Shown: piece by piece, positions 24,583 through 64,000 of the stretch
How the letters are laid out: the number at the start of each line of letters is the position of its first letter
How positions within the stretch are numbered: the first letter of the stretch is position 1
NCBI GenBank assembly: GCA_012840925.1
Contig: DUVS01000008.1
Coordinates: 1-64,000 of the forward strand
DNA: 64,000 nt
Origin: Bacillota bacterium
Lineage (GTDB): Bacteria > Bacillota > Limnochordia > Darwinibacteriales > DTU012
Reading direction: 5' to 3'
Position numbers and translations under genes: made by a program
Notes under the pieces: generated by a model
What the model was told of the DNA's origin: nothing
Database searches by the model: none
What the model saw: the letters and a program-made list of their open reading frames with translations, nothing else

Positions 24583-24847
24583 GGGCAAAACCCCAGCACT
24601 GGTCCAGGGTGGTGCCAGGGTTTCCCTTTAGTGGCGCTTGATCGGCCTCCAGATGAGAATAACGGTTTTCTTCCTAGCCTTCAAGATCGGGTCAATTAAG
24701 GCCTTAAGCAGGTTAAACATGTCATTCCCCCGTTTACGGTATTTGTACCTCGTAATCGGCTTTGTGTTGTATGTTATGAAGGAGATCTATTTTTGGTGAC
24801 AAATTGTTATAGTGAAAGAGGGAATCAAAGGCAGAGGAGGTTTTTCA

Positions 24848-25956: not shown

Positions 25957-26340
25957 ATGGAAGTCAGAAAAGGATTACTGTACAGCAAAGATCACGAGTG
26001 GGTACAAGAAGTCAGTGAATCAGTAGTCAGGGTGGGGATCAGCGCATATGCACAGGACCAGCTGGGAGACATCGTGTACATCGAACTGCCCGAAATTGAT
26101 GCTGAAGTGGCCAAAGGCGAGTCCTTTACAGTGGTTGAGTCAGTAAAAGCCGCCTCAGACGTCTTCTCACCCGTGTCAGGAAAAATTGTGGCCGTAAATG
26201 AAAAATTAGAGGACAGTCCAGAATTGATCAATGAATCGCCATATGATGAGGGATGGATTATTGAAGTTAAGAGTGACGAACTGGAACTGTCAGACTTAAT
26301 GACAGCTGAGGAGTATGCCCGGTATATAGAGGAGGTATGA
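25957..26340 (+). CDS. gcvH: Glycine cleavage system H protein
   Basis: Lipoyl motif VESVKAASDVFSPVSG. Confidence 0.97.
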   Translation: MEVRKGLLYSKDHEWVQEVSESVVRVGISAYAQDQLGDIVYIELPEIDAEVAKGESFTVVESVKAASDVFSPVSGKIVAVNEKLEDSPELINESPYDEGWIIEVKSDELELSDLMTAEEYARYIEEV

Positions 26341-55589: not shown

Positions 55590-57668
55590 ATGAAATTCAA
55601 GGTCGAAAAACTTGCTCGATATCAGCGCCTGCAAGAACCGGTAACTGCAGCCATGCCAATTCCCAAGGCTGCTCTGAGGGATGCTGCTGATGTACAAGTC
55701 TACTGTGGTGAACAGCTATTACCAACCCAGTCACGCATCACAGCTGTTTGGCCTGATGGCAGTATCAAATGGCTGTTGATTAATTTTCTCGCTGATCTTC
55801 CTGCCAACAGTGCTCAGGAATTTGAGCTTCGGTTTACAAAGTCCACAGCACAACCTCTGGTTCCTGTATTGGTTGCAGAACATGAGCACCGCTTGCAGCT
55901 TCGCACCGGAGATCTGGTGGTTACCCTTGCGGATCCAGCTGACGGAGGGCTCTTTCACGAGGCAGTCTACAAAGGCTGGCGTCTTGATCACCGCAGTATG
56001 GCAGAACTTGGGGTCTTGAAGGATGGGCAAAGATATTATACGGTTATTACAAAACCAGGATGGTCTATGATTGAATCCGGGCCGGTCCGGGCAGTATTGG
56101 AGGCTTCGGGTACACACCTGAACGCTGACGGAGCCAAAGTCCTGGATTTTTTGGTACGGATTTATGCTTTTGCCGGGAAACCATGGCTGTGGATTGATTA
56201 CCAAGTGATTAATCGAAGTGAAGCCGATCTTGAACTTTCAGGATTAGGCTGGCATCTTAACCTCAATCCCCATGCAGCGCCGGTCCGGACTGCTGTGGCA
56301 GTGTCGAACTACAGAACCACTATCAGATCGAGTGAAGCGGGAGATGCTTTAGAGCACAAAATTGACGCCGAACAGATCCTATATGAACCTAACGAGCAGA
56401 TCCCGGAAACTCTTTACGGTACTTTTTGGGCAGATTGGAACGGTGCTCAAGGTGGAGTTGCCGTCACAATTTACCAGGCACACCAAAACTTTCCAAAACG
56501 ATTGGCAGCAGCGAAGACCGGGCTCGATGTGGAGTTACGTTTCGACAAACCTTTGCGGACGGGGATTTCCGGGCCTTTTGCCAAGAATTTCCAGAATGGT
56601 TGGGAAAACGAATTCATTGGTGCGAAGCCGTTTTTCGTGGCTGAAGGGTTAACCTTTATCAACTGCGGCAGCGATTTGATTTACGCCGGTGCTATGCTCT
56701 ATTCCTTTACTGGAAACGAAAAACCACTGCAGTGGGCCAAAACCCTGGCCCAGCAGTATGTCAATGCCCGAGATCCCGTTACCAAACTGGGCGCTTTTCA
56801 ATACAGTCAATCCCGTAATCAAGCCGGGCCACCGGACGATCCCGACAACATTCAATATGCCTGGCAGACATCAGGTGATCGGGCTCAGCGTCAGTTTGGC
56901 CATGAATTCGGTGATCTCGCCCTGGAGGGCAGATTCCTTCATAAAGAACACGATGAAATCTATGGCAAGAATGCCATTATCCAACTGCAGATTGCTGAAA
57001 TGCTAGAGGATGCGGGACAGGAATTTCTAAGCTGGACCCATGAAGGGCTGCGGGCGTTTGCTCAGTATGCTTATAACATGGAAGAGAGCACAGTAAAACC
57101 AATGTGGAGCGATGGCACCGATCTGTCCGGCTATCAGCTGAAGCGTTCAGGATATTACGGAGAACAGGGAACAGTTCTGCTGCCAAGGCGAGCCGGAAGC
57201 ATTTACCTCTTATCATTTGCCCTGGGCTATCGCCTCACTCAGGATCCCTTGCTCTGGAAGGTTGCACGGCGGGTAGCCATGGATCATCAATTGGGGGATC
57301 TGGGTGTTCAGCCGGGAGAAGAGATGGATCTGAACATGGCCACACCCAATGCAGATCCGGTAGCCTTGTTCAGCCTGTTGGATATTTATCGTGGGACACA
57401 TGAAACAGCTTATTTGGAACTTGCCTGCCGCATCGGAGACAACATCATTGGCCAGTACTTCAATGAAGGGTTCTTTGCGGGCAAAAACAATATCTATGCT
57501 CCAACTGATTCTGAGGAAGCTTTTGCCTTGATCGCGCTGGAGACAGCTGTTCGTGGTGATTGGGATGCAGTGCCCCGGTATAACTCAGGGCGGGGCTTTA
57601 TTCACGGCAACTATGACGGTTACGGCAGAACCTACGATAAAGTAGTATTTTGGCAGCAGGCCAAATAG
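55590..57668 (+). CDS. YetA/PcRGLX-like protein (PL26-type rhamnogalacturonan-lyase-like fold)
   Basis: N-terminal RIFT-barrel pattern (VTAAMPIPKAALRDAADVQVYCGEQLLPTQSRITAVWPDGSIKWLLINFLADLPA), large central alpha region; next to an AraC regulator. Confidence 0.6.
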   Translation: MKFKVEKLARYQRLQEPVTAAMPIPKAALRDAADVQVYCGEQLLPTQSRITAVWPDGSIKWLLINFLADLPANSAQEFELRFTKSTAQPLVPVLVAEHEHRLQLRTGDLVVTLADPADGGLFHEAVYKGWRLDHRSMAELGVLKDGQRYYTVITKPGWSMIESGPVRAVLEASGTHLNADGAKVLDFLVRIYAFAGKPWLWIDYQVINRSEADLELSGLGWHLNLNPHAAPVRTAVAVSNYRTTIRSSEAGDALEHKIDAEQILYEPNEQIPETLYGTFWADWNGAQGGVAVTIYQAHQNFPKRLAAAKTGLDVELRFDKPLRTGISGPFAKNFQNGWENEFIGAKPFFVAEGLTFINCGSDLIYAGAMLYSFTGNEKPLQWAKTLAQQYVNARDPVTKLGAFQYSQSRNQAGPPDDPDNIQYAWQTSGDRAQRQFGHEFGDLALEGRFLHKEHDEIYGKNAIIQLQIAEMLEDAGQEFLSWTHEGLRAFAQYAYNMEESTVKPMWSDGTDLSGYQLKRSGYYGEQGTVLLPRRAGSIYLLSFALGYRLTQDPLLWKVARRVAMDHQLGDLGVQPGEEMDLNMATPNADPVALFSLLDIYRGTHETAYLELACRIGDNIIGQYFNEGFFAGKNNIYAPTDSEEAFALIALETAVRGDWDAVPRYNSGRGFIHGNYDGYGRTYDKVVFWQQAK

Positions 57669-58622: not shown

Positions 58623-58784
58623 TTGGATAGCATTTATAAATTCAGTGTACATAGTGGAAATATCGAACCAAATGCAACACTGGTAATTGAATCCGACAAA
58701 GGAACCGAAACCTCATTCTTATGTTTCAGGGCTAATTCAGGTATGGAGATCTATATTAAATCGATTACCATTGAATACCAATAA
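58623..58784 (+). CDS. Small hypothetical protein (53 aa; absent from ORF track)
   Basis: TTG start 6 nt after GGAGGG; MDSIYKFSVHSGNIEPNATLVIESDKGTETSFLCFRANSGMEIYIKSITIEYQ; followed by a terminator. Confidence 0.5.
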   Translation: MDSIYKFSVHSGNIEPNATLVIESDKGTETSFLCFRANSGMEIYIKSITIEYQ

Positions 58785-58796
58785 AAAAACGACCAT

Positions 58797-58831
58797 ACTC
58801 CCTGATGGCTCAATGTCATCAGGGAGTTTTT
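58797..58831 (+). terminator. Rho-independent terminator
   Basis: ACTCCCTGATG-GCTCAATGT-CATCAGGGAGT followed by TTTT. Confidence 0.8.
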
Positions 58832-58937: not shown

Positions 58938-59570
58938 ATGCAGGTACTACAGGCAATTTCGCAAGCACTGCAAAGAGGAGATGTTAACGGCGTCAGGCAG
59001 GGTATTGCCACGGCCCTGGGCGAAGGGATTGAGCCCAAACGGATCCTGGAAGAAGGCATGCTGTCAGCCATGGACATTATTGGCGTCAAATTCAAGAACA
59101 ACGAGATTTTTGTACCTGAAGTTCTGATTGCAGCCAGAGCCATGAATGCGGGAATGGAAGCATTGAAACCGAAACTGGTCGAAGCAGGCATAAAACCTAT
59201 TGGCAAAGTAGTGATCGGCACGGTTAAAGGCGACCTCCATGACATTGGCAAAAACATGGTGCGGATGATGATGGAAGGAGCCGGCTTCGAGGTTGTCGAT
59301 CTGGGCATTGATGTCGCGGCAGAGAGATTTGTTGAGGCGGTTCAAGAACACCAGCCGGACATCCTGGGCATGTCTGCCCTGCTGACGACAACCATGGGTG
59401 AAATGAAAGCGGTTATTGATGCTGTTGCTGACGCTGGATTAAGGGATCAGGTCAAAATTATGGTTGGAGGAGCGCCGCTAACCCAGAGTTTCGCCGATCA
59501 GATTGGTGCGGATGTTTATTGCAAAAATGCAGCTGAAGCTGCAAGTGCAGCAAAACAACTAGTCCTTTAG
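58938..59570 (+). CDS. Corrinoid (cobalamin-binding) methyltransferase protein
   Basis: B12-binding motif GTVKGDLHDIGKNMV (DxHxxG) and N-terminal helical cap; MtaC/MtbC-like. Confidence 0.93.
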   Translation: MQVLQAISQALQRGDVNGVRQGIATALGEGIEPKRILEEGMLSAMDIIGVKFKNNEIFVPEVLIAARAMNAGMEALKPKLVEAGIKPIGKVVIGTVKGDLHDIGKNMVRMMMEGAGFEVVDLGIDVAAERFVEAVQEHQPDILGMSALLTTTMGEMKAVIDAVADAGLRDQVKIMVGGAPLTQSFADQIGADVYCKNAAEAASAAKQLVL

Positions 59571-59600
59571 CTGTAAGCAAAGGCCTTGAGGAGGGAGACT

Positions 59601-60638
59601 ATGAAGCCTATTGAGCGAGTTACTTTAACCCTGCAGCACAAAGAAGCAGATCGTATTCCGGTCTATCCATTGATGTGCGGTGTCGCCAGGAAACTGGTTG
59701 GTGCACCTTATCCCCGTTGGAGTACAGATATGGATGTTTGTGCTGAAGCATATGAAAAGGTAACCGAGGAATTTGATCTGGACATTATCTGTACCCTGAT
59801 CGATCTGTCGGTGGAAGCAGCCGATTTTGGCCAACCGATCATTTACCCGGAAAACGAAGCAGCCCATCCGGACTTTCACAATTACATGCTGAAGAGTATT
59901 GCTGATATCAATGCTTTACAGCCAATCAAGTTCAAAGATTCGGTCAGAATGAAGGGCATGGTCAAGCTCTGTGATCGTTTGATGAAGAGCAAAGGCGCTG
60001 AAGTTCCGGTAGTAGCCTTTGTCTTTGGCCCCTTAGGAGTTTTAAGCATGATGCGCGGGCAGGCCAATCTATTTATGGACATTCTTGATGATCCCGACGC
60101 TGTCAAAAACGGTGTAGCAGCCGTGACCGAGACTTTGCTGGAGTATATCGATGCTTTGGCTGCTACGGGTGTCCCAGCTGTTATGCTGGATACTCTGTTT
60201 GCATCCCAGTCGATCATGAGAAAGTCCATGTGGCTGGAATTTGAAGGCCCGTACGTGAAACGCATTGCGGAGCGGATTCGGGAGCATGGCGCTCAGGTGA
60301 TGATTCACAACTGCGGCAATGGCATATACTTTGATGCCCAGATTGAGGCCATGCAGCCAACTGCCATATCATTCCTCCATCTTCCCGATGACTGTCAATC
60401 ACCACAGGAATTAAAAGAGAAATATGGTTCAAAAGTGACTTTGATCGGCCGTATCCCTCCCACCTGGCTGTTGACTTGCACTCAGGAGGATTTAGAAGAA
60501 GAATGCCGCAGGGAGATCGATGACTACAAAGCAGGCGGCGGGTTTATTCTGGCAACCGGCTGTGAGTATCCTGCCAATTTAGGTTTTGAACATGCCAGAA
60601 CAATGGTCAGGATGGCAAAGGAATATGGAAAGTATTGA
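59601..60638 (+). CDS. Uroporphyrinogen-decarboxylase-family methyltransferase (MtaA/CmuA-like)
   Basis: MKPIERVTLTLQHKEADRIPVYP, Zn-ligand-like HNCGN and ATGCEYP. Confidence 0.88.
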   Translation: MKPIERVTLTLQHKEADRIPVYPLMCGVARKLVGAPYPRWSTDMDVCAEAYEKVTEEFDLDIICTLIDLSVEAADFGQPIIYPENEAAHPDFHNYMLKSIADINALQPIKFKDSVRMKGMVKLCDRLMKSKGAEVPVVAFVFGPLGVLSMMRGQANLFMDILDDPDAVKNGVAAVTETLLEYIDALAATGVPAVMLDTLFASQSIMRKSMWLEFEGPYVKRIAERIREHGAQVMIHNCGNGIYFDAQIEAMQPTAISFLHLPDDCQSPQELKEKYGSKVTLIGRIPPTWLLTCTQEDLEEECRREIDDYKAGGGFILATGCEYPANLGFEHARTMVRMAKEYGKY

Positions 60639-61359
60639 CATGGAGAATACCCTGAGCTTGAATTCGGAGGTCGGGTACCAGCTGCCCCGGGAGATCATTT
60701 TACGGGCTATTGGTTATCAGAACCCCGATAGCGCCGGAGAGGAGATCAATGATCTTATTACGGAGTATCTGGGATTGGCAATAATAGCAGCAGATCCGAA
60801 AGCAATATACCGCAGTACATCCTTCAGGCTTGTTGGGGATGATCAGGTTGAGCTTCTGGACGGGCAGATTCTCACCAGTGAAATGTTGTATCAGACTATA
60901 GCCGAGTGTGAGGGGATAATCATCGGTCTGGTGACACTGGGGAGCAAGACCGATGCTGCCATCGCCGCCGTGTCCCAAGAAGACGCTTTCTGCGGCTATC
61001 TGACAGATGTGATCAGTTCCTTGTTGGTGGAAATTTTGGCCCACAAGTTCTGGCAGTACCTAGTTTCGGAGTTAGGCAGCCAGGGCTATAGAGCGACCAG
61101 TTTCGTCTCTCCCGGAGCGATCAAGTTTCCACTGCCGGAACAGAAGCGGATCTTTCAGTTCCTCCAACCGGAGCGAATCGGAGTTACCCTTACCGAGTCA
61201 TGCTTGATGGAACCATCAAAATCACTGACGGTGATCTTGGGTTACGGCAAACAGATTGAGCCAGCAAAATACAGTCACGACTGTTCAACTTGCGATATGA
61301 AGGATTGCTTGATTAGAGGAATCCATATAGATTTGGCAGAATCAAATGCTGGGTACTAA
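60625..61359 (+). CDS. MetH-activation-domain-like protein with C-terminal Cys motif
   Basis: Resembles B12-dependent methionine synthase activation domain proteins of methyltransferase operons; C-terminal CSTCDMKDCLIR. Start 60625 or 60640. Confidence 0.7.
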   Translation: MESIDMENTLSLNSEVGYQLPREIILRAIGYQNPDSAGEEINDLITEYLGLAIIAADPKAIYRSTSFRLVGDDQVELLDGQILTSEMLYQTIAECEGIIIGLVTLGSKTDAAIAAVSQEDAFCGYLTDVISSLLVEILAHKFWQYLVSELGSQGYRATSFVSPGAIKFPLPEQKRIFQFLQPERIGVTLTESCLMEPSKSLTVILGYGKQIEPAKYSHDCSTCDMKDCLIRGIHIDLAESNAGY

Positions 61360-61373
61360 AGAGCCCAGCATTT
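61344..61373 (+). other. Hairpin spanning the stop codon of the MetH-activation-like gene
   Basis: AAATGCTGGG-TACTAAAGAG-CCCAGCATTT, 10-bp perfect stem followed by TAATT. Confidence 0.5.
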
Positions 61374-61433
61374 TAATTGTGGAATCAATTGAGCAGAGTA
61401 TACGCTTTGGATTGCAGAAGGCAGGTGTCAACC

Positions 61434-63218
61434 ATGGAGTTGGAAATCAAATTGAGGATGCAAAACAGGGTAGAAACAATCCTATGCCCGCCCGGCGCAA
61501 ACCTGTTAGAGTTGCTGCATCAGTATGGATACAGTGTGTACAGTCCCTGCGGAGGCAAGGGCAGGTGCGGAAAATGCTTGGTTAGGGTAAGTGGTAGTGC
61601 CGTCGAGTTGACGGATCCGGAAAGGCAGCATCTTACCCAGGCTCAAATTGAAGACGGCATCCGCCTGGCCTGTCAGCTCAAAGTCACCGGCAATCTGGAG
61701 ATTGACTTGTCACCCACTGATCAACTGGTAATCCTTGCTGATGATTCTGGCGGTGATGTTCAGCTGAACCCCCATGTCAGGCAGGAGGAGATTCGCCTAG
61801 AACAACCGCGCATTGACCAACAGGACGATTATTGGCAGCGGATTCAGCAACAGCTGGGACGCAAAGAAATTGCATCCCAGGCATTATGCCGTTTGGGAGA
61901 ATTAGAGCAAAAACTGGATCTGCTGGTAACTTTCAGCGACGGCAAAGTACTGGATATTGACGATCCTCAAGCAGTTGCAGCCAAGTCAGGATATTATGGG
62001 CTTGCTGTTGATATCGGTACCACCACAATAGTACTTTATCTTCTCAATCTGACCAACGGGGCACAAGTGGGTGTCCATGCCTTTGCCAATCCCCAAAGTC
62101 GTTACGGCGGTGATGTGATCACAAGGATCGACTATACAATCAACCGCGCTGATGGTGTTCAAAAACTGCAGGACACTCTGTTGGAGTCCCTTAATCAGGG
62201 GATTCAGCATCTGGTTCGCAAACACGGCATTGATACCACCAAGATTTACCACGCTGTCTTTGTTGGCAACACTGTAATGCTCCACACACTTCTTGGGGTG
62301 AATGCGGCCAGCATTGCCAATGCCCCCTATGTCCCCATTTTCACCGATGGGATGGAGTTTTCCGCCCGGGAGCTGGGTTTGGGGATCCATCCTGACGGGA
62401 TTGTGGAATTACTACCCTGTGTGTCAGGTTATGTGGGCGCGGATATCATTGCGGATCTGCTGGCTGCCGATTTCGAATCCAACCAATGGCGGTTGCTCGT
62501 AGATATTGGCACTAATGGGGAGATCATTTTGGGGAACAAAGAAAAGATGTTCGCCTGTTCCGCTGCAGCAGGGCCGGCGTTCGAAGGTGCTAATATTGCC
62601 TTCGGCATGAGCGGCATACCCGGAGCCATTGCCAGTTATCAGCTGGAGAGCAGTGGTGAGATTCGCTATCAGGCCATTGCCAATCAAGAACCCCAAGGAA
62701 TTTGCGGCTCCGGGTTGGTGGATATCATTGCGTCTTTGTACTCCCGAGGCTTTCTCAGCTCCACCGGTGCATTTCAAACAGGATTGTCAATAACTGAGTA
62801 TCAGGGACAACCGGCGTACCGGGTTGTTCCGGGCAAAGAGATCTTCCTGACCCAAAAGGATGTGCGGGAATACCAGCTGGCTGCCGGTGCAATTGCTGCC
62901 GGAATTCAGGTATTAATGAGCGAAGCCGCCATCACAGAAACAGCCATTGACCGGCTCTACCTTGCGGGCGGGTTTGGCAATTATATAAATCCTGAGAGCG
63001 CAGCCGTTTTAGGCTTGCTACCCCAAAGTCTGCTGACAAAGGTGGTGAAACTGGGCAATGGCGCCGGGGCTGGTGCCAAGCATTATTTGCTTGATCGCAG
63101 CGCCAGGGCGAGAGTTGACAAATTAAAGCAGAGGATTAAGTATGTTGAGCTGTCAGCGAGGGCTGATTTCCAAGAGCATTTTATGGGTGCCATGCTTTTT
63201 CCTGAGATCAGAGCTTAA
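61434..63218 (+). CDS. Corrinoid protein reductive activator (2Fe-2S ferredoxin + ASKHA/DUF4445, RamA/AcsV-like)
   Basis: 2Fe-2S motif CGGKGRCGKC...C, ASKHA phosphate loop GLAVDIGTTTIVLYLL, LVDIGTNGEIIL. Confidence 0.9.
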   Translation: MELEIKLRMQNRVETILCPPGANLLELLHQYGYSVYSPCGGKGRCGKCLVRVSGSAVELTDPERQHLTQAQIEDGIRLACQLKVTGNLEIDLSPTDQLVILADDSGGDVQLNPHVRQEEIRLEQPRIDQQDDYWQRIQQQLGRKEIASQALCRLGELEQKLDLLVTFSDGKVLDIDDPQAVAAKSGYYGLAVDIGTTTIVLYLLNLTNGAQVGVHAFANPQSRYGGDVITRIDYTINRADGVQKLQDTLLESLNQGIQHLVRKHGIDTTKIYHAVFVGNTVMLHTLLGVNAASIANAPYVPIFTDGMEFSARELGLGIHPDGIVELLPCVSGYVGADIIADLLAADFESNQWRLLVDIGTNGEIILGNKEKMFACSAAAGPAFEGANIAFGMSGIPGAIASYQLESSGEIRYQAIANQEPQGICGSGLVDIIASLYSRGFLSSTGAFQTGLSITEYQGQPAYRVVPGKEIFLTQKDVREYQLAAGAIAAGIQVLMSEAAITETAIDRLYLAGGFGNYINPESAAVLGLLPQSLLTKVVKLGNGAGAGAKHYLLDRSARARVDKLKQRIKYVELSARADFQEHFMGAMLFPEIRA

Positions 63219-63377: not shown

Positions 63378-64000
63378 ATGACCAAGAAACGTTTTCTGTT
63401 CTTGTTTGTACTACTGATGGCGTTGGGGTTGTCTGGTTGTTTTTCTTTTTTCTCAAAAACCCCTTATCTCAAAGTAGTTCCTGAATCAGTAGTTTTGAAT
63501 CTGGCGACTGGAGAAACTGAGGTTGAATTGACTGCAGAGGTTGTGGATCTGATTACCGATGAGCAAATTACCTGGGAAATTGCAGATGCAGCAGTTGCCA
63601 CACTTAGTGAAGAAACAGGTGCTCAAGTAAAGGTTGTTGCTCAGGCGGTCGGCGAAACAACAATCACCGTGAGCTGCGGTGAGCTTGAACCTGTGACCGT
63701 CTCTGTCAAGGTTGTTCACGATGAAAAGGCGCTGCCGCTGGTGATTGATTTTGCCGAAGCCGAGAGAAGCACTTTTTTTACCGCTGAATATACCCATGCA
63801 CCGAATATGGCTGATGAACCATTGTGTGGAATATTAAGCAGTGGTTCAAAGATCCAGATCAATGCCGGAGTGTTTTCGATGAACGGTGCCCGTTGGGCGA
63901 TTGGTGCTCCCTCCACTTATCTGGAAGGTGGTATCAAAACGACAAAAGAGGACAGTAAAACGGTCGGTTATTTGGATTTGTCCAAACCATATGCAATAAC
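63378..64000 (+). CDS. Lipoprotein with a Big_2-like Ig domain (runs off the window; absent from ORF track)
   Basis: AGGAGG RBS, MTKKRFLFLFVLLMALGLSGC lipobox, then VVPESVVLNLATGETEVELTAEVVD...ITWEIADAAVATLSEETGAQVKVVAQAVGETTITV. Confidence 0.75.
   Translation, partial: MTKKRFLFLFVLLMALGLSGCFSFFSKTPYLKVVPESVVLNLATGETEVELTAEVVDLITDEQITWEIADAAVATLSEETGAQVKVVAQAVGETTITVSCGELEPVTVSVKVVHDEKALPLVIDFAEAERSTFFTAEYTHAPNMADEPLCGILSSGSKIQINAGVFSMNGARWAIGAPSTYLEGGIKTTKEDSKTVGYLDLSKPYAI

Follow-up and report, generated by a model that had tools for sequence, protein, structure and literature searches.

Gene content and layout of the locus

The window analysed here is the first 64,000 nucleotides of contig DUVS01000008.1 (assembly GCA_012840925.1) from an uncultured Bacillota bacterium of anaerobic digesters, and our subject is a corrinoid methyl-transfer gene set at positions 58938-63218, with particular attention to its UroD-superfamily methyltransferase, here named UroD1. 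Four intact genes are found, all on the + strand, in the order corrinoid protein, UroD1, MetH-activation-fold protein and RACE. This confirms the four-gene set proposed in the initial annotation.

58797..58827, + strand: terminator-like hairpin with 13 pairs and a T-run, from a consensus match only
58938..59570, + strand: corrinoid protein (methyl carrier) of the MtgC/MtbC/MetH type, 210 aa, PF02607 and PF02310
59601..60638, + strand: UroD1, UroD-superfamily methyltransferase, 345 aa, from PF01208, alignment, AF2 model with Foldseek, and tree
60640..61359, + strand: MetH-activation-fold protein with a C-terminal CxxCxxxxC, 239 aa, presumed reactivation partner
61434..63218, + strand: RACE, ferredoxin-ASKHA ATP-dependent corrinoid reductive activase, 594 aa, PF00111, PF17651 and PF14574

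The start of the corrinoid gene at 58938 was picked by its ribosome-binding site. For the activation-fold gene an alternative start exists at an in-frame ATG a few codons upstream, which overlaps UroD1. The identical four-gene set is observed in a second genome of the genus (G003), and all four genes are under purifying constraint between the host genome (G000) and G003, with dN/dS of at most about 0.2 for each gene, some of the synonymous distances being saturated. An Rfam scan of the window gave no match for riboswitch control of the set. We surveyed 73 draft genomes, with UroD1 counted as present at 56% identity or more; the occurrence data below are presence/absence inferences, uncorrected for kinship. 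UroD1 is present in 23 of the 73 genomes, of which 22 have a stand-alone corrinoid protein and 22 have RACE, so the grouping is not due to chance.

UroD1 resembles corrinoid:thiol methyltransferases

UroD1 gives a full-length match to the URO-D profile (193 bits). Its predicted zinc ligands His236, Cys238 and Cys321 are invariant across 21 aligned sequences, down to 42% identity, and align with the H-x-C...C residues of MtaA. The predicted site is a soft His-Cys-Cys set, a type that Kountz and Balskus (PMC10418091) tied to sulfur and selenium substrates. The AF2 model of UroD1 (pLDDT 94) has MtaA as its best Foldseek match (TM 0.84). UroD1 is therefore like MtaA and MtbA in its fold and zinc ligands, and also in the presumed transfer of a methyl group from methyl-corrinoid to a thiol. 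However, it is 18-19% identical to these enzymes and scores 125 bits on the CoM-methyltransferase subfamily model PRK06252, under the cut-off of 244; moreover, the host group is not methanogenic and coenzyme M (CoM) is unlikely as the thiol.

In a tree of 37 UroD proteins, UroD1 and the uncharacterised UroDs of G121, G167 and G129 make up a clade of their own (99/99). This clade is separate from MtaA and the Mlp-like proteins (100/100) and from the UroDs without the third Cys, several branches being long and the deep placement unsure. The phylogeny against characterised systems, suggested earlier as a check, thus places UroD1 outside the MtaA clade, and no characterised member of the UroD1 clade is found among solved structures or curated families. 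The earlier view of the locus as a corrinoid methyl-transfer set, with UroD1 as its only methyltransferase and an unknown partner substrate, is supported. Among open papers, a literature search on UroD, corrinoid protein and homocysteine methyltransferase jointly returned only a MetE structure paper. A sister UroD clade is observed in other Bacillota (L058, L059, L060), in clusters with two corrinoid proteins and DUF1638-/DUF2284-like, CobW-like, MoxR-like and VWA-like genes, the names other than UroD and corrinoid protein coming from reading the sequences.

Corrinoid carrier and reactivation proteins

The corrinoid protein matches B12-binding_2 (PF02607) and B12-binding (PF02310), and scores 243 bits on the MtgC model, under its cut-off of 370. 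RACE contains Fer2 together with the middle and C-terminal RACo domains, the combination that defines this family; its score on the AcsV model (395 bits) is under the cut-off of that model. The third protein scores under the PF02965 cut-off. In structure comparisons, however, its AF2 model hits MetH activation domains and PDB 1j6r, the best match being TM0269, and a TM0269-like activation-domain fold is thus predicted. The Cys-rich tail that had been noticed on this MetH-activation-like protein is HDCSTCDMKDCLIR, and its CxxCxxxxC pattern is kept in the nearest relatives of the protein, not in all.

The activation-fold protein is also paired with RACE in G006, where the sole corrinoid domain found belongs to a MetH whose length, about 810 aa, leaves no room for a built-in activation domain. 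Relatives at the order level carry the set as DUF1638-RACE-PocR/AraC-corrinoid-UroD1. The order in G012 is activation-fold protein-RACE-PocR/AraC-corrinoid, and G016 has all of these but the corrinoid gene. DUF1638 and the activation-fold protein thus seem to stand in for each other beside RACE. In Phaeobacter, methionine synthesis depends on two genes, one for a RamA-like DUF4445 protein and one for DUF1638 (Price 2018, PMC5764234). The swap between DUF1638 and the activation-fold protein in like gene sets suggests a role for DUF1638. In L036 (3692-9035) and L114 (1748-6359), gene sets that are alike in other respects, the two proteins occupy the same slot before RACE and PocR-AraC.

Methionine and folate genes of the host genome

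The host genome (1.72 Mb, 56 contigs, 94% complete) contains three UroD proteins, two corrinoid proteins and one RACE, which is that of the window set. Domain searches of it detected no MTHFR, no pterin-binding methyltransferase (PF00809) and no MtrH (PF02007). MetE, MetH and homocysteine methyltransferase are likewise not detected, so the proposed search for MetH in the rest of the genome returned nothing. Meth_synt_2 (PF01717) is found neither in G000 nor in any other UroD1 genome. The gcv genes reported for the window are there, with GcvT at 24812 and GcvP at 26337. The suggestion that the UroD protein supplies its methyl group to folate is not borne out, since none of the three folate-side proteins is detected in G000 and UroD1 occurs mainly where they are missing. 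As had been claimed, no MttB- or MtaB-type substrate-specific methyltransferase (MT1) lies within the set, though no genome-wide search for these two families was made. CODH/ACS was considered as a methyl source and is argued against by the position of the sole G000 RACE in this set and by the lack of AcsE-type pterin domains, no direct search having been made.

UroD1 occurs mainly where the folate route is missing

MTHFR is absent from 20 of the 23 UroD1 genomes. Taken across the full set of 73 genomes, the Fisher tests give weak results (MTHFR, p=0.016; pterin domains, p=0.054) because one family lacks almost all components. Sharper support comes from the RACE-positive genomes and from within-genus contrasts. 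In the RACE-positive subset, which was selected after seeing the data, MTHFR is found in 3/22 genomes with UroD1 versus 11/16 without it (p=0.00077). A homocysteine-methyltransferase domain is present in 37 genomes, 11 of which have neither MTHFR nor pterin methyltransferase; a stand-alone corrinoid protein is found in every one of these 11 and UroD1 in 10 of them, compared with UroD1 in 3 of the remaining 26. One genus contains both arrangements: in G002 the genes run metY-metA-metF-activation protein-metH and UroD1 is missing, whereas G001 has an S-adenosylmethionine (SAM) riboswitch before metY-metA-Hcy, no metF, and UroD1. The same contrast is observed between G014 and G016 in a second genus. 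In these relatives folate is probably not the source of the methyl groups for homocysteine, and the UroD1-corrinoid set is the natural alternative.

The arrangement of the genes differs between families. In family f10 the UroD1 gene is separated from the genes for the corrinoid protein and RACE; these two sit together behind FolD and mostly also behind sulfide-dehydrogenase-like (NfnAB-like) genes. Family f6 has no UroD1, and a pterin-binding protein is found between RACE and the corrinoid protein. In f10 (L138-L141) the homocysteine methyltransferase gene is clustered with those for methylthioadenosine (MTA) phosphorylase, MtnA and S-adenosylhomocysteine hydrolase. Shortened MetH-like proteins are observed in G003 (L110 6140-7504) and G004 (L111 6651-8027); they stop roughly midway through the folate domain, have altered folate-motif residues and contain no B12 domain.

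Neighbourhood and a second UroD-corrinoid locus

The hairpin at 58797-58827 lies between an AraC gene and the gene set and sets the latter off from its upstream side. Further upstream, the gene at 55590-57668, described earlier as YetA-like, matches Pectate_lyase_2 and PcRGLX domains. A link of this neighbour to the set was examined and rejected, the adjacency not being conserved in the readable same-genus genomes (G001, G004) and the hairpin lying between. For the idea of O-methyl-sugar use, the YetA adjacency is thus weak evidence; the idea gains indirect support from another locus of the host genome, on contig C15 (L065 8896-16673). This locus contains the second corrinoid protein, a PocR-AraC regulator, a pectic acid lyase, a GH106 rhamnosidase and a second UroD protein, UroD2, which has H-S-C...H in place of H-C-C. 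It is possibly a methyl-sugar demethylation locus. In G000, G003 and G004 the second locus has a PocR-AraC regulator and a UroD with a non-Cys third ligand beside a pectate-lyase-like gene. The sole corrinoid protein found in G001 and G004 is that of the second locus, in G004 near UroD2, so UroD1 must use this protein there. In G008 and G016, other UroDs without the full Cys set lie near UroD1. A literature search on sugar O-demethylation by UroD proteins returned nothing relevant.

Just 5' of the hairpin, at 58623-58786, the tail of a surface/lipoprotein gene of the repeat type is left as a remnant. In G003 a related gene precedes the corrinoid gene, and a further copy begins at window position 63378.

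A possible folate-independent methyl relay

By their sequences, the four genes encode a corrinoid carrier, a UroD methyltransferase whose zinc site is of the soft His-Cys-Cys type, and two further proteins that belong to reactivation families. We tentatively read them as a folate-independent corrinoid methyl-transfer module in which UroD1 works at the thiol end and the final acceptor is a thiol, homocysteine being the likeliest. RACE, with ATP and a low-potential electron, would reduce Co(II) to Co(I), presumably aided by the activation-fold protein. The carrier would then be methylated by a substrate-specific methyltransferase, for which UroD2 on contig C15 is the best candidate in G000; UroDs of this kind may draw the methyl group from an O-methyl donor. 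UroD1 would act like MtaA, its zinc activating the thiol and the methyl group moving from carrier to thiol. In relatives where a separate homocysteine methyltransferase survives, that enzyme could also draw methyl groups from the same carrier. Homocysteine is the most likely thiol because no MetE, MTHFR or folate-binding methyltransferase is found. The use of the second-locus corrinoid protein and the presence of UroDs without the full Cys set favour a relay with UroD1 on the thiol side.

Several observations weigh against this relay. The donor role of UroD2 is assigned from its neighbourhood only, and the host genome is 94% complete. G000 shows neither MetY nor homocysteine methyltransferase, which weakens a role in methionine synthesis in the host itself. 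Ten UroD1 genomes, G000 included, have neither a MetY match nor a homocysteine methyltransferase, so that either UroD1 itself serves homocysteine there or the product differs; the acceptor in these ten is a guess. Three genomes (G005, G008 and G050) have UroD1 plus the folate route, and in the 13 genomes with UroD1 and a separate homocysteine methyltransferase a second homocysteine enzyme would be redundant. In addition, a large part of the pattern comes from three close groups, in tests uncorrected for kinship.

Comparison with known systems and alternative explanations

That corrinoid proteins feed methionine synthesis from non-folate donors is already a known idea. Split MetH with reactivation by DUF4445 and DUF1638 (Price 2018, PMC5764234) and MtgBCDE, through which the demethylation of betaine is coupled to methionine synthesis (Mausz 2025, PMC12478193), resemble the window system in a stand-alone corrinoid protein shared between methyl donors and homocysteine, in RACE-type reactivation, and in the DUF1638 found in relatives of the window set. 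Both keep a pterin-binding methyltransferase, whereas the window system has a UroD where a folate module would be expected and none is found; of the stand-alone homocysteine, folate and B12 modules by which split MetH is recognised, the B12 module is present in G000 and the other two are not found. MesA-D (Price 2021, PMC7857596) likewise make methionine without methyl-folate and in the absence of MTHFR, with the methyl group taken from a corrinoid protein in MesA-C, but the Mes proteins match Meth_synt_2, the domain undetected in all UroD1 genomes; this difference in family leaves a likeness in function untouched.

The closest rival places UroD1 on the donor side, where it would load the carrier with a methyl group taken from an S-methyl compound, be it dimethyl sulfide, methanethiol or a methylthio product formed in methylthioadenosine salvage, while a separate homocysteine methyltransferase makes methionine. 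We consider this rather unlikely. The soft zinc site fits a thioether as well as a thiol, the homocysteine methyltransferase co-occurs in 13/23 UroD1 genomes, and the f10 clustering with methylthioadenosine-salvage genes would bring methylthio waste and homocysteine together. However, in the ten UroD1 genomes without homocysteine methyltransferase nothing detected unloads the carrier, and the nearest structural relative, MtaA, works on the acceptor side. Catabolic demethylation, with UroD1 as the MT1 of an O-demethylase, haloalkane or similar system and an unknown methyl acceptor, seems less likely again. The chloromethane system Cdm and the dichloromethane cassette mec (PMC13222342, PMC9768040) also combine a UroD-superfamily methyltransferase (CdmB, MecE) with a corrinoid protein, and PocR-AraC regulators, the sensor type of mec, adjoin the corrinoid protein and UroD1 in order-level relatives of the set. 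Yet all bacterial systems of this kind use a folate methyltransferase as the second methyltransferase (MT2), CdmA or MecF in these two, whereas the set has none and no pterin-binding or MtrH domain is detected in G000; the H-C-C zinc set is also unlike O-type enzymes, and CdmB has none of these ligands.

It is also conceivable, though at a lower probability than either, that the surviving homocysteine methyltransferases depend on betaine or S-methylmethionine, the loss of the folate steps being unrelated to UroD1 and the role of UroD1 being separate. Those of G001 and f10 score 220-235 bits on the betaine-homocysteine methyltransferase model, but its cut-off is 338; the G003/G004 protein is plainly a shortened MetH, and a stand-alone corrinoid protein is kept in all of the 11 genomes with a homocysteine methyltransferase and neither folate step. 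Recycling of methyl-selenide or methyl-selenol, as proposed for the type 1 mlp clusters (PMC10418091), is very improbable. These clusters do resemble the set, with the same protein kinds (UroD methyltransferase, corrinoid protein and RACE, no folate methyltransferase) and the same zinc ligands, and Mlp2 was assayed for demethylation with selenide. In contrast, the set has one UroD where type 1 clusters have at least two (Mlp2 and Mlp3 being the minimum), contains the extra MetH-activation-fold protein, and has its UroD1 outside the clades with the Mlp-like proteins of G105, G099 and G187. Most UroD1 carriers are also without SelD, which is found over cut-off in 4/23 UroD1 genomes and neither in G000 nor in its genus.

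Implications

A more specific form of the relay would make UroD1 a fifth kind of folate-independent methionine synthase, an MtaA-like zinc enzyme that methylates homocysteine and whose corrinoid carrier is charged by O-demethylating UroD paralogues on plant-derived methyl groups; we regard this form as unlikely. Under it, these bacteria would build the methyl groups of their methionine from food and not from folate. If the relay as such is true, a group of anaerobic-digester bacteria has swapped the folate methyl route for a B12-type relay fed from elsewhere. This would account for steps that seem to be missing from their methionine pathways, add to the known folate-independent methionine systems, and give an uncharacterised UroD clade a testable role.

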